Assembly (NCBI GenBank): GCA_008933525.1
Contig: WBUV01000071.1
Location: 1 to 10,782 of the forward strand
Reading direction: 5' to 3'
Length of the DNA: 10,782 nt
DNA from: Bacteroidales bacterium
GTDB lineage: Bacteria > Bacteroidota > Bacteroidia > Bacteroidales > Tenuifilaceae
Under the pieces are notes generated by a model. The model was not told the origin of the DNA. It saw only the letters and a program-made list of their open reading frames with translations, and ran no database searches. Positions 7,323 through 10,782 of the stretch are shown piece by piece (within the stretch, counting starts at the first letter, position 1; every line of letters begins with the position of its first letter). The position numbers and the translations under genes are program-made.

Positions 7323-7451
7323 AGTATGGCGACTGAAATAACATCTAATGGTACGATAATGGATATTCAATATTTTTTAATTTTGTAACCAAAACCCAAA
7401 AAATCAATAAATATGAATGTTTTCTCATAAATCTTTTTATTTAACTCTCAT

Positions 7452-7515
7452 CTTTCATCTTTATAACTTTAAACTTTAAACTTTAAACTTTTCAACTTTC
7501 AAACTTTATAACTTT
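7452..7515 (+). repeat. AACTTTN heptamer/octamer tandem repeat
   Basis: CTTT recurs at 7452, 7459, 7467, 7474, 7481, 7488, 7496, 7504 and 7512, i.e. at 7- or 8-nt steps. The core is three exact AAACTTT units. It ends 7 nt before the start codon of the Crp/Fnr gene. It has the same position and period as the aro-spacer repeats but a different sequence. Confidence 0.85.
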
Positions 7516-7522
7516 TCTTTCC

Positions 7523-8191
7523 ATGTATCAAATTCTCTCAAAATCGCCAATGTTTCGTGGTTTAAACCCCGACGAAATCAAAGAACTTATCGAAAGGGTA
7601 GGGCATTCTGTTCGTTCGTTCAGCAAAGGTCAAACCGTAGCTCAGCGCGACGATGAGGTGAAAAATCTCTGTGTTGTTGTTGAGGGAACTGTTAAGGGCG
7701 AAATGGTCGATTTCTCGGGTAAAATTCTTAAAATTGAGGAGATGACCGCGCCAATGCCTATTGCCCATGCGTTTCTATTCGGCGAGCGGAATAGGTTTCC
7801 TGTTGATGTGGTAGCTTTGGAGGATTGTAAAATACTGTTTATCCCCAAGCCCGATTTTATGCGGCTCATGCAACAAAATGCAACAATTCTTAGCAACTAC
7901 CTGAATGCCATATCGAACCGTGCGCAGTTTTTGTCCAATAAGCTTTGGTTTTTATCCTTCAAAACCATAAAGGAAAAAATTGCACATTACCTATTAAATA
8001 TATCGCGAAGCGAATCTAAAACCACAATTATTCTTCCCAAGTCGCATCAGGAGTTAGCTGAGTTTTTTGGGGTAACGCGCCCATCGTTGGCTCGTGTTTT
8101 TGCCGATATGGAGGCCGAGGGAATAATCACTGTCGATCGACGCGAAATAACCATCATCAACAAGTCCAAGTTGATGGATATGACACGGTAG
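7523..8191 (+). CDS. Crp/Fnr-family transcriptional regulator
   Basis: The 222-residue length and layout are typical of the family: an N-terminal cyclic-nucleotide-binding-like beta-roll (about 5-115, FRGLNPDEIKELI through VVEGTVKGEM), a long dimer helix (about 116-150) and a C-terminal Crp-type helix-turn-helix (SHQELAEFFGVTRPSLARVF, 174-193, then EAEGIITVDRREITI). The effector loop has no clear cAMP phosphate-binding RxS pattern. There are no clustered N-terminal cysteines for an FNR iron-sulfur cluster; Cys50 and Cys102 are isolated. The ligand is therefore unknown. It starts at the first ATG after a heptamer tract. Neighbours are ridA upstream and a mobile-looking repeat array 30 nt downstream, and neither reveals the regulon. 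Confidence 0.9.
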   Translation: MYQILSKSPMFRGLNPDEIKELIERVGHSVRSFSKGQTVAQRDDEVKNLCVVVEGTVKGEMVDFSGKILKIEEMTAPMPIAHAFLFGERNRFPVDVVALEDCKILFIPKPDFMRLMQQNATILSNYLNAISNRAQFLSNKLWFLSFKTIKEKIAHYLLNISRSESKTTIILPKSHQELAEFFGVTRPSLARVFADMEAEGIITVDRREITIINKSKLMDMTR

Positions 8192-8213
8192 TTTACTATA
8201 GGTGATGGTTTTT

Positions 8214-8405
8214 CTCTTAACATGCCTGCGCATGCAGGCATCCATCTTATAGTTGTTTATTGCTGGCAAGAATATACACGTAAAATTGACACATAAGTAA
8301 ATATACAAAATAATGGATTCCTGATCTCCGCTCCGCTGCGTCAGGAATGTTGCAATTGGTAACGCCTTTCCTCCATACACATGCCTGCGTATGCAGGCAT
8401 CCATT
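8214..8405 (-). repeat. short GIY-YIG-derived module, copy 1
   Basis: About 190 nt bounded by palindromes at 8222-8241 and 8381-8400. It aligns without gaps to 8786-8977 (offset 572) with about 11 mismatches over the 184-nt core. Eight of these are transitions clustered in the 23 nt before the second palindrome. Inside is a hairpin with arms ATTCCTGA (8317-8324) and TCAGGAAT (8341-8348). On the minus strand, 11 codons of the GIY-YIG gene start run into a stop. Confidence 0.85.
8247..8294 (-). pseudogene. GIY-YIG gene 5' remnant, copy 1
   Basis: Reads MCQFYVYILASNKQL then stop. Residues 3-11 are identical to the start of the intact nuclease (MDQFYVYILAS), and the sequence then switches to a tail shared only with the other remnant. 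It is far too short to fold as a nuclease, so the sequence was probably kept as element DNA and not as protein. Confidence 0.7.
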
Positions 8406-8420
8406 AGTTTTAATCTTTTT

Positions 8421-8708
8421 CTAAACCCACTCTTTTGCTAGGTCATCCCAACTCGGATTCTCCTTTTCAATAAGTTTAATCTTCCACTCTCTTTTCCATT
8501 TTTTCAACTGTCTCTCCCTTGTAAATGCCTCGAAAGAGGTTTTATGTGTTTCATAGTAAACCAACGTGTGAACATTATATTTAGAGGTAAACCCTTGGCT
8601 GTTATTATTCTTGTGTTCTAAAATTCGCCTCTCAATATCATTGGTGAAACCAATGTAAAGAGTTCCTCTTTTTTTGCTGGCAAGAATATACACGTAAAAT
8701 TGATCCAT
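8421..8708 (-). CDS. single-domain GIY-YIG nuclease-like protein
   Basis: A 95-residue stand-alone GIY-YIG protein of the YhbQ/UPF0213-like type. YVYIL (5-9) and YIG (18-20) give the two signature strands. TNDIERRILEHK (22-33) carries the catalytic-type Arg28 and His32. Glu65 in AFTRERQLKKW is the likely metal ligand, and the C-terminus has the NPSWDDL tail seen in related Bacteroidota proteins. No extra DNA-binding domain is visible. The ATG is preceded on the minus strand by a segment shared with both flanking modules, including the ATTCCTGA/TCAGGAAT hairpin (8731-8738, 8755-8762). The family includes structure-specific or repair-type nucleases and homing endonucleases; the role here is not known. 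Its position within palindromes suggests it processes or spreads this element, which is an inference. Confidence 0.88.
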   Translation of the reverse strand: MDQFYVYILASKKRGTLYIGFTNDIERRILEHKNNNSQGFTSKYNVHTLVYYETHKTSFEAFTRERQLKKWKREWKIKLIEKENPSWDDLAKEWV

Positions 8709-8769
8709 GAGTAAATATACAAAATAATGGATTCCTGATCTTCGCTCCGTGGCGTCAGGAATGTTGCAA
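8676..8769 (-). repeat. 94-nt GIY-YIG 5' segment, copy 2 (intact gene)
   Basis: This segment covers the first 11 codons of the intact nuclease gene and its upstream hairpin. It matches 8262-8355 with 6 differences in 94 nt and no gaps, and also matches 8834-8927. It is the only sequence common to all three units besides the palindromes, so it is probably the functional end or recognition region of the element. Confidence 0.85.
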
Positions 8770-8785
8770 AAAGAAAAGCCTTAGC

Positions 8786-8977
8786 CTCTTAACATGCCTG
8801 CGCATGCAGGCATCCATCTTATAGTTGTTTATTGCTGGCAAGAATATACACGTAAAATTGAACCATAAGTAAAGATACAAAATAATGGATTCCTGATCTC
8901 CGCTCCGCTGCGTCAGGAATGTTGCAATTGGTAGCGTCTCTTCCCCGCGCACATGCCTGCGTATGCAGGCATCCATC
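8786..8977 (-). repeat. short GIY-YIG-derived module, copy 2
   Basis: Gap-free counterpart of 8214-8405, with palindromes at 8794-8813 and 8953-8972 and a hairpin with arms 8889-8896 and 8913-8920. It lies upstream of the nuclease gene in the same orientation as the first module, so the gene is flanked by direct repeats. Confidence 0.85.
8819..8866 (-). pseudogene. GIY-YIG gene 5' remnant, copy 2
   Basis: Reads MVQFYVYILASNKQL then stop, the same junction and tail as the remnant at 8247-8294. The identical breakpoint after codon 11 argues that both modules descend from one deleted ancestor and not from independent decay. Confidence 0.7.
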
Positions 8978-9017
8978 ATTAATGCCATAAACCAACAACA
9001 TTTCCAGCTGCCCAACT

Positions 9018-9044
9018 CCCTCTCTGCCGTTCAAATAGAGAGGG
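9018..9044. repeat. CCCTCTCT/AGAGAGGG hairpin repeat
   Basis: Perfect 8-bp arms (9018-9025, 9037-9044) with an 11-nt loop, followed by GCAGGGGTGAG. It resembles a common Bacteroidota intergenic repeat (CCCTCTC...GAGAGGGCAGGGGTGAG), from memory. It sits just outside the GIY-YIG array. Confidence 0.6.
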
Positions 9045-9060
9045 CAGGGGTGAGTCCGTG

Positions 9061-9427
9061 CGCCAATCCATCCAGTATAAACTATAAATCAGATCATTAA
9101 TCTTTTATTGGTTTGCAAAGATGTTTTTTTATTCTACCATTAAGCTAAATACTAAAAGTATTTTCCATTTTGCGGTTGTTAAATGGAATAAACACAAATT
9201 TTTACACAAAACAAATCACAAAACTGAAAAATTAGCTTTAACTTAACAGCCCTTTTCCCCATATTTTTTCACATTTACAAACGTATTTTTAAGGTATTAT
9301 AATATTGATTTACAGTAATTAACAAAAGCAACAATTGCAAAAACCAAATTTATACTAAAGGATATTTCGTGAAACTGTTAACGTTTCACGAACAACGGAA
9401 CAAACAATTAACAAATAACTAAATTCT
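9061..9427. other. AT-rich leader region of secreted-protein gene
   Basis: No gene is seen in these 367 nt. A weak AT hairpin (AAATACT at 9147-9153, AGTATTT at 9157-9163) is followed by T residues. The best -7-like site is TAATATTG (9300-9307), one mismatch from TAnnTTTG with no clear -33 partner. A perfect dyad (9366-9392) lies near the start codon. Confidence 0.5.
9366..9392 (+). promoter_or_regulatory. 10-bp perfect dyad in the leader
   Basis: Arms TTCGTGAAAC (9366-9375) and GTTTCACGAA (9383-9392) are separated by TGTTAAC. The dyad ends 35 nt before the ATG at 9428. It may be an operator or an mRNA hairpin that affects translation or stability. No T-tract follows, so it is not a standard terminator. 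Confidence 0.6.
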
Positions 9428-10782
9428 ATGCCTATGAAAATTAAACGTTTACTAACAACATTGGCCCTAATGGTCGCATTCCTGCTGGTCGGGAACGTCG
9501 GTTGGGCACAGCTTATTGCTACAGATAACTTCAATTATGCTGACAATGCATTATTGACATCAAATGGATGGGTTGCACACAGCGGTGCTGGAACTGCAGC
9601 CATAGATGTAGGAGCCTCAAATGGCTTATCATATACTGGATATTCAGGCTTAACTGGAAAATGTTCAGCAATTGAAGGAAATGCAGCAAGAATAGATAAT
9701 ACTGGAGAGGATATTTCTAAAACTTTCACCCCTGTTACATCTGGTACAATCTATTATTCATTTCTTGTAAATATCCCTGTAAGCACAAGTGCTGCAGGAT
9801 ACTTCCTACATCTAGGGGGGAGCACTAGTGCTTTTGCATCAAGAATATACGCAAAACCATCTGCCACTGCTGGCAAAATTAATTTTGGAATTTCAAATAC
9901 AAGTACAGCATCTTACGCTGCTACACCAACAGATTTTGATCCAGGCGTAACTTATCTAATAATAGTTAAATACGATGTTTCAACTACGGGAGATGGAAGT
10001 CTTTGGGTAAAAGCATCAGGTGTGCCCATCACTGAAGTCGCAGCAGGCACCCCAGAGCATACTACAACAGCCTCTGGATTAGCAAGCATAGACAGAATCT
10101 GTTTAAGACAATACAGTGCAACTCAAAGCCAAATAGTCGATGGCATAAGAATAGGACAAAGTTGGAATGATATTTTTGATTTTACTGCTCCAACTTGGAC
10201 TGCAACCTACCCAAGCACCTCTAATCTTGCCTCAACATCTGTTGACCTAACAGTTAATGCCGATGAACCTGGCACAGCCTTTTATGTAGTTTTACCAAAC
10301 GGTGCAACAGCACCTTCATCTGCTCAAGTTGTTGCTGGAACAGATGCTGCTGATGCTCCTGTAACACTAAAAGGAAACATCAATATCGCTGCTGCAACTA
10401 CAAATTACACAGCTAACATTACTGGCTTAACAGCATCTACTGATTACGATATCTATGTAGTAGCACGCGATGACGAAGGCACACCAAACCTTCAAGCATC
10501 GCCAACTTTAGTTGAGATAACAACCCCTGCACCCGATGTAACAGCGCCAGCTTGGACTGCTACATATCCTAAAACAGCCAATATTGCCAATAACGATTTC
10601 GATTTATTGGTAAATATTGATGAGATTGGAAAAGCCTACTACGTTGTTTTAGCCAATGGCTCCACCATTCCCAGTTCAGCTCAGGTAAAAGCAGGGCAGG
10701 ATGGAACTGGCGCTGCTGCGTTTAAATCGGGCAGCATCAATATCACAACTGCAAGTACTGAGTTCTCAACCAATATTAATGG
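9428..10782 (+). CDS. secreted repeat protein, 3' end outside window
   Basis: The frame is open from ATG 9428 to the last base (451 full codons), so the protein is larger than seen. The first 27 residues form a signal peptide (MPMKIKRLLTTLALMVAFLL, ending GWA before Gln28). Residues about 30-250 are Thr/Ser/Ala/Gly-rich and beta-rich, and end in IVDGIRIGQSWNDIF, a pattern common in Bacteroidota LamG-like or concanavalin-like secreted domains. Then 119-residue repeats begin: TAPTWTATYP at 253 and TAPAWTATYP at 372. Each contains a V/L-rich 'EPGTAFYVVLPNG' or 'EIGKAYYVVLANG' strand and SSAQV-AG, consistent with Fn3- or cadherin-like domains. A second in-frame ATG (9434) could be the start. A type IX secretion C-terminal domain would be expected beyond the window, but this cannot be seen. 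Adhesin or carbohydrate-binding roles are guesses. Confidence 0.85.
   Translation, partial: MPMKIKRLLTTLALMVAFLLVGNVGWAQLIATDNFNYADNALLTSNGWVAHSGAGTAAIDVGASNGLSYTGYSGLTGKCSAIEGNAARIDNTGEDISKTFTPVTSGTIYYSFLVNIPVSTSAAGYFLHLGGSTSAFASRIYAKPSATAGKINFGISNTSTASYAATPTDFDPGVTYLIIVKYDVSTTGDGSLWVKASGVPITEVAAGTPEHTTTASGLASIDRICLRQYSATQSQIVDGIRIGQSWNDIFDFTAPTWTATYPSTSNLASTSVDLTVNADEPGTAFYVVLPNGATAPSSAQVVAGTDAADAPVTLKGNINIAAATTNYTANITGLTASTDYDIYVVARDDEGTPNLQASPTLVEITTPAPDVTAPAWTATYPKTANIANNDFDLLVNIDEIGKAYYVVLANGSTIPSSAQVKAGQDGTGAAAFKSGSINITTASTEFSTNIN

Follow-up and report, generated by a model that had tools for sequence, protein, structure and literature searches.

In unrelated bacteria, genes for a small, single-domain GIY-YIG protein are found repeatedly, at positions that shift, together with REP-like palindromes; this recurrence suggests that gene and repeats form a tiny mobile element. 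In the window (the whole 10,782-nt stretch analysed, contig WBUV01000071.1 of a Bacteroidales bacterium), we consider it probable that we see a homing-like cassette, whose putative nuclease recognizes its own terminal hairpins, plus the tandem array of that cassette. Support for this reading comes from sequence comparison: a REP–gene–REP anatomy across phyla, a preferred orientation of the repeats, turnover at orthologous sites, divergent alleles in Lysobacter and units that lack the gene.

Organization of the palindrome array

The array contains four H1 palindromes, ATGCCTGC-NNNN-GCAGGCAT, spaced by 159, 413 and 159 nt, with the loops GCAT, GTAT, GCAT and GTAT in this order (Table 1). The original prediction had described four hairpins with identical arms, these intervals and these loops, and we found them exactly where it placed them; its reading of an intact GIY-YIG gene in the long interval and only the 5′ end in the short ones also holds, with one open reading frame (ORF) and two remnants of ~12 codons. 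A second hairpin type, H2 (ATTCCTGA-N16-TCAGGAAT), which was absent from that prediction, is present in three copies. Searching the window for the H1 pattern with its CC tail, allowing up to three mismatches, returned the four known places alone. Chance origin was rejected because 200 dinucleotide shuffles of the window gave 0 H1 pattern matches. Single-strand DNA folding yielded −9.2 kcal/mol (z ~ −4.4) for two of the four H1 copies and −7.6 kcal/mol (z −2.6) for one of the three H2 copies.

The array is laid out as three H1–insert–H2 units followed by a terminal H1, and linkers of 31–32 nt, calculated from the hairpin coordinates, separate the units. Every insert is enclosed by a tail-inward repeat pair, H1(ccat)→…←(atgg)H2, so that the tails CCAT and ATGG point inward and the heads (AAC, CAC and GTT) face outward from the units. 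The middle unit carries the complete gene on the minus strand, while each of the outer two carries the leader and the first ~12 codons, followed by a stop. These two short units are identical to one another at 131 of 134 nt. Elsewhere in the window, a GAAG-rich 14-nt tandem repeat (1432–1524) lies between two putative aroD- and aroE-like ORFs.

Table 1 Features of the array and its anchor gene in the window.
Feature	Position	Strand	Basis
Crp/Fnr-type regulator gene, anchor for the orthologous site	7523..8191	+	Name from reading of the protein
H1 palindrome copy 1, loop GCAT, CCA tail rightward; left border of short unit 1	8222..8241	+	Pattern, shuffles, folding
Short unit 1 insert: leader and first ~12 GIY-YIG codons, stop; gene-deleted derivative	8242..8316	-	Unit alignment
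H2 hairpin copy 1, CCA tail inward (left)	8317..8348	-	Pattern
H1 copy 2 (loop GTAT), bordering the coding unit on the 3′ side of the gene	8381..8400	+	Pattern, folding
Single-domain GIY-YIG nuclease gene (putative activity), 95 aa	8421..8708	-	PF01541, conserved residues, predicted fold
H2 hairpin copy 2, bounding the coding unit on its upstream side	8731..8762	-	Pattern, folding
H1 copy 3 (loop GCAT), bordering short unit 2	8794..8813	+	Pattern
Short unit 2 insert: 5′ gene remnant	8814..8888	-	Unit 131/134 identical to short unit 1
H2 hairpin copy 3	8889..8920	-	Pattern
H1 palindrome copy 4, loop GTAT; terminal, without partner H2	8953..8972	+	Pattern

A small GIY-YIG protein

The product of the intact gene matches PF01541 at 60.5 bits, against a cut-off of 22.6. 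The catalytic residues of GIY-YIG enzymes are Tyr, Tyr, Arg, His, Glu and Asn, and the putative equivalents are kept in an alignment of 51 proteins: Y7 (50/51), Y18 (51/51), R28 (51/51), H32 (51/51), E65 (50/51) and N84 (47/51). The AlphaFold2 model has a pLDDT of 92. Foldseek returned the UPF0213 structure 1zg2 (E 2e-4) as the sole match below 0.001, with Slx1 (E 0.008 and weaker) and the UvrC nuclease domain (E 0.4) further down, and by sequence only two UPF0213 structures in the PDB reached E ≤ 0.01. Domain, conserved residues and predicted fold mark the protein as a GIY-YIG nuclease with putative cleavage activity.

We found 6,627 homologues at E ≤ 0.001, 120 of these among the matches listed. 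Two gonococcal records are 56.8–57.6% identical to the window protein across 85–88 residues. The one gonococcal locus that we read places the gene amid ATTCCC(N8)GGGAAT repeats, a dRS3-type array.

Apart from the array gene, the genome of the window has two further GIY-YIG matches: a gene beside tRNA-Met and a match within a 611-aa frame, which we take to be UvrC. Small GIY-YIG genes that are 35–42% identical to that of the window adjoin an intact tRNA at four loci (G000:C431:376-585 (L002), in the genome of the window, L036, L039 and L042). The tRNA is Met in three and Gly in one, and exact partial tRNA copies of 12–42 nt lie elsewhere in each locus; at L034, a small GIY-YIG gene lies with tRNA-Met and has no partial copy. 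Such tRNA pieces could possibly serve as element ends, by the same logic as REPs. One further locus (L040, in G028) combines eight tRNA-like predictions with two GIY-YIG matches, and tandem GIY-YIG genes spaced by ~340–710 nt occur in G007:C20, G021:C92, G021:C100, G019:C31 and G052:C30. For the window array a link to tRNA was rejected, as the window contains no tRNA.

Palindromes flank the gene across bacteria

Using one scan of genome contigs, we assembled 63 loci, picked by similarity to one protein. Hairpin density in these loci is 2.04 per kb within 400 nt of the gene and 0.16 per kb beyond 1 kb (~12-fold). At least one hairpin lies near the gene in 45 of the 63 loci, and hairpins lie on both sides in 27. 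We then applied a strict REP rule (AT-stem of 8, loop of 4–5, within 200 nt of the gene) to 61 loci, excluding L108 and L110 for their short flanks (hairpins occur on both sides in L110, none at L108). By this rule REPs flank 33 of the 61 homologues, compared with 10 of 290 control ORFs from the same loci, and they lie on both sides of 18 homologues and of 0 control ORFs. The other 28 loci have no REP by the strict rule; some carry other stems (for example, TCGCCCGG) and others nothing.

The 33 REP-flanked loci include, by record titles and our own grouping, members of Bacteroidota, Alpha- and Gammaproteobacteria, Campylobacterota, Patescibacteria, Planctomycetota and Ignavibacteria-type bacteria. 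In 43 of 51 cases the tail of the closest REP points toward the gene (the two sides of a locus were counted separately and are not independent), and many of the homologous loci carry GTC heads. Protein distance and stem distance showed no correlation in a Mantel test (r = 0.037, n = 33; 1,528 of 5,000 permutations as high). The connection between palindromes and a GIY-YIG gene, first drawn from this one array, is borne out: it is specific to the subfamily, extends across phyla and has palindromes bounding the gene on both sides.

Among loci of relatives, REPs (read from printed hairpins) accompany 7 of 10 homologues scoring at least 75 bits and 1 of 20 weaker ones (P = 4e-4, with the 75-bit cut chosen afterwards). 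In 99 genomes, the window's own included, eight are REP-rich (at least five pattern copies, with at most one mismatch). The original prediction had regarded palindromes widespread in genomes without the gene as evidence against it, which is not clearly the situation in these genomes: all eight REP-rich genomes have some homologue, but in four of them the best one is 38–43% identical. These four are G001, G005, G011 and G022 (the last two with a stop inside the homologue), and only the other four (G002, G016, G048 and G090) have a homologue of at least 56% identity. Counting any homologue (46 of the 99 genomes), REP-rich genomes make up 8 of 46 with and 0 of 53 without (P = 0.0015). The split is 8/19 versus 0/80 by a 55-bit cut that was chosen after seeing the data, with G001 at 55.2 bits, and 6/14 versus 2/85 by a 60-bit cut. 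Exact ATTCCYGC REPs occur in 30 of 38 named gene-bearing genomes (drawn from 39 of the 63 loci) at 0–134 copies per genome, and the reversed control occurs in 0 of 38.

Two further observations are recorded here. G001 contains three REP pairs (L251–L253) with equal 31-nt spacing, different stems (ATTCCGCATC.. with ATTCCTGC..) and GTC heads facing each other; they are candidate gene-less mobile pairs. On a Planktothrix plasmid (L196), a family member has an MmeI-type enzyme gene on one side and drmA of a DISARM system on the other, and the 3.3 kb read there contain no perfect hairpin of at least 8 bp.

The array in its own genome and at the crp site

The genome of the window is a 3.39-Mb draft in 543 contigs, 85% complete. 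The exact H1 core is confined to the window array, and allowing up to two mismatches adds eight places (0 with the reversed control). One of the eight is a solitary palindrome, ATTCCTGC..GCAGGAAT, on contig C13, whose stem is that of the relatives. In this genome H1 makes up an array rather than a dispersed REP family, and we saw no sign of present spreading. The spread of coding and non-coding units that had been proposed is not supported here, given one array and one solitary copy.

With the crp-like gene as anchor for this site within the genus, we scanned 1,500 nt behind it with the patterns ATTCC(C/T)GC, ATGCCTGC and H2 only. An array lies behind the crp-like gene at 2 of 22 loci, those of the window's own genome and of G002. 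G002 is a one-contig genome, and its related array, at the same crp site as in the window, comprises 11 hairpins of the H1 type, two of them with imperfect stems, and 11 of the H2 type. The stem in G002 is ATTCCTGC/GCAGGAAT, as against ATGCCTGC/GCAGGCAT in the window; both arms are changed, in all four window copies, which is consistent with homogenization of an array constrained by base pairing. Judged by eye, the short units in G002 and G090 resemble gene-deleted forms whose endpoints differ from those in the window. Gene-less units beside a coding unit are present in three arrays, that of the window and, by eye, those of G002 and G090. The window element is probably old at its site because G002 has an array there too. 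The concern that a single array is merely shared by vertical descent applies to this locus, given G002 at the same crp-downstream site, but not to the family.

Occupied and unoccupied sites

The cassette is present in some relatives and absent in others at nine sites, with gain and loss mostly not told apart. Unoccupied sites were found through flank similarity, which biases them to conserved flanks, and were mostly judged by eye. Besides the crp site, one of five ispG–uspA sites read is occupied (by eye). At sufB–sufC of Azospirillum, A. lipoferum 4B is occupied and five others read as empty, with a spacer that is not alignable to the base. At fnrL of Sphingobium, we read three occupied and four unoccupied forms, and for each of two Sinorhizobium sites one of either kind. 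A Shinella site, likewise with one occupied and one unoccupied form read, has no REP in the unoccupied relative. The Lysobacter site is occupied in 13 of 20 and the Kordia site in 5 of 11 cases. Gelidibacter was left out, as mostly the right flank alone was found in other genomes. The comparison of empty and occupied orthologous sites, proposed with the original prediction, agrees with it: at fixed sites the cassette is present in some relatives, absent from others or replaced.

A pattern scan at crp and inspection by eye at the other sites revealed no REP at 42 of 49 unoccupied sites. The remaining seven are in TomTYG64, TomTYG74, K101, Ak57, G153, TomTYG65 and G158. Five of them hold a two-headed single REP. 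At fnrL of Sphingobium, where the occupied form is GTC-stem..gene..stem-GAC, TomTYG64 has a single clean palindrome bearing a head at either end and TomTYG74 a mutated one. In Sinorhizobium, K101 has a clean two-headed palindrome at gltA and Ak57 a degenerate one at purQ. The two-headed palindrome of G153 is likewise degenerate. TomTYG65 and G158 carry another kind of REP. To judge by its sequence, the two-headed REP looks as if the outer halves of the flanking REPs had been joined, and it may be a target that preceded entry or a scar left by loss of the unit; the trees do not separate the two. Entry into an existing REP is not the rule, because only 7 of 49 unoccupied sites hold a single REP. 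No target-site duplication was noticed in the Sphingobium, Sinorhizobium and Azospirillum site alignments, in what was not a systematic search.

Divergent alleles in Lysobacter

For Lysobacter, the approximately unbiased (AU) test finds the gene alignment incompatible with either flank tree (1.8e-49 and 3.3e-33); the G145 gene entered the test truncated, at 64 of 90 residues. The left-flank tree is in turn rejected on the right-flank alignment (p-AU 3.5e-6), so that either the flanks themselves recombine or the test is too sensitive. The case for replacement therefore rests on two pairs. G139 and G140 are 95.7% and 93.9% identical in their flanks and 67.4% in their genes; for G144 and G150 the values are 95.7%, 96.1% and 68.5%. 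In both pairs the REPs are conserved and the sequence between them has strongly diverged. The spacer just outside the REPs also differs, so the REP does not fix where the exchange ends. Alleles this divergent, set between flanks that are nearly identical, are what a mobile cassette would be expected to show. In Kordia, by contrast, genes (78–84% identity) and flanks (83–90%) are nearly in step.

Mechanism and alternative explanations

In the mechanism that we propose, the mobile unit would be REP–GIY-YIG gene–REP, with tails to the gene and heads out. The nuclease would recognize a REP as a single-stranded hairpin, on the lagging strand or in DNA taken up, and would nick or cut it. Host recombination or repair between REPs could then copy, swap or delete the unit. 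A deletion inside the unit would leave gene-less short units, repeated exchange between REPs would build tandem arrays, and homogenization would keep the arms identical and complementary. We infer both that the window protein cleaves the palindromes and that this cleavage is what moves the unit.

The most serious rival, which we nonetheless hold to be unlikely, is a resident nuclease specific for single-stranded DNA (Ssn/NTS) that is not itself mobile. Its repeats would tune natural transformation or recombination, and units would shift via homologous recombination, like neisserial minimal mobile elements. The gonococcal homologue in its dRS3-type array is in line with this, as are the Lysobacter flank trees, which disagree mutually as they would under general recombination, and the dRS3/NIME arrays and minimal mobile elements described in the consulted parts of PMC3898611. 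By itself, however, a resident nuclease leaves unexplained both the two-sided REPs in about six phyla and the arrival of gene plus REPs at otherwise empty sites. Far less probable is that the gene hitch-hikes on REPs spread by another enzyme, a RAYT/Y1 transposase or a phage integrase. Y1 transposase matches were present in all nine genomes searched, and dRS3 is described as an integration site of filamentous phage (PMC3898611, as far as consulted). Yet an AT-stem REP lay within ~1.5 kb at only 1 of 20 Y1 loci read (from 38 matches), whereas 7 of 10 close GIY-YIG loci had one in the nearest 300 nt, and mobilization by RAYT was rejected on this lack of linkage in relatives. G000, which has four Y1 matches, gave 0 of 2 fetched loci with an AT-stem REP nearby, and G002 has 31 pattern copies with Y1 matches of only ~25 bits. 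The consulted part of PMC3733652 also reports that no CGTC REPs were found to flank a tyrosine transposase gene.

We give very little credence to the palindromes being RNA-level elements, such as terminators or mRNA stabilizers, with no tie to the gene. REPs are mostly intergenic and the window gene is convergent with the crp-like gene, which would fit such elements, but no T run follows H1, and the two-sided, orientation-biased flanking of one gene family would go unaccounted for. Positions 7400–9500 contain no Rfam family at gathering score, and a known Rfam RNA was rejected as all three matches fell below it. Chance or an assembly artefact is the least credible explanation of all: the genome is a draft of 543 contigs, but shuffles gave no matches and a related array sits at the same site of the one-contig G002.

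Returning to the homing-like cassette, a broader proposal has, in our estimate, close to an even chance of being right. REP-flanked single-domain GIY-YIG genes would be widespread minimal homing-like elements of ~350–400 bp with both ends, and the missing mobilizers of CGTC REPs. The REP would be recognition site, element end and excision scar in one, and REPs and REP pairs scattered through many genomes would be gene-less descendants of these elements. The cassette may in this way explain the spread of one large class of bacterial repeats, and a nuclease bounded by CGTC-type REPs makes the question of their missing transposase directly testable. An element so small would be near the lower size limit for an autonomous mobile gene, and enzyme–palindrome pairs from many bacteria could be a source of site-specific cutters of single-stranded DNA.

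Comparison with known systems

The original prediction knew of no described system of this form, but related ones are on record. The Ssn family is reportedly (Nature Communications, 2025) represented in Neisseria meningitidis by a GIY-YIG enzyme that cuts single-stranded DNA at NTS repeats, and the gonococcal GIY-YIG protein beside its repeats is presumably Ssn. Common to Ssn and the window are a small GIY-YIG protein with palindromic repeats around it, and a gonococcal homologue that is ~57% identical. If Ssn acts in this way, the enzyme–repeat pair is already known. The present system is known from sequence alone, whereas Ssn reportedly cleaves single-stranded DNA; what we add is the mobility of gene and repeat as a unit.

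CGTC REPs, too, have been described, and, in the consulted parts of the report by Di Nocera et al. (2013, PMC3733652), they have no dedicated transposase, occur in several phyla, with Bacteroidetes listed, and include neisserial dRS3 as CGTC-1. H1 resembles them in its 8-bp stem beginning with AT and its 4-nt loop, in the ccat (CCA tail) after all four copies, and in that both form dimers. H2 has the 8-bp outer stem but 16 nt inside. Further differences are the window heads, AAC/CAC (taac, acac, gcac) instead of CGTC/TGTC/CCTC, and the four copies in one array of the own genome, while the dispersed many-copy state is met in several relatives and named genomes. In Neisseria, PMC3898611, as far as consulted, gives almost 700 dRS3 for the meningococcal genome and describes NIME arrays. 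The dRS3 and RS arrays are likewise 20-bp palindromes arrayed with short inserts, but the inserts in the window are a nuclease gene and its remnants. Among the matches listed, no paper links GIY-YIG genes to REPs, though one may exist, and the term 'GIY' is absent from the texts of PMC12306157 and PMC3733652.

The REP/BIME/REPIN systems with RAYT also combine one nuclease gene, flanked by short palindromes, with derivatives that lack the gene (consulted parts of PMC3116915 and PMC2817692). In contrast to RAYT/REPtron, neither H1 nor H2 is flanked by a GTAG head, and the fold is GIY-YIG, not HUH Y1. With homing endonuclease elements the cassette shares presence/absence at fixed positions, seen at nine sites, and replacement, seen in two Lysobacter pairs. 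For the seg genes of phage T4 we know of no palindromic ends. These free-standing GIY-YIG homing endonucleases are, like the cassette, intergenic single genes that vary between relatives, and their cut sites lie hundreds or thousands of base pairs from the gene (PMC2988022, in the parts consulted). As far as we know, what is new relative to all of these systems is the mobile behaviour of the cassette across phyla and its identification with CGTC-type REPs.
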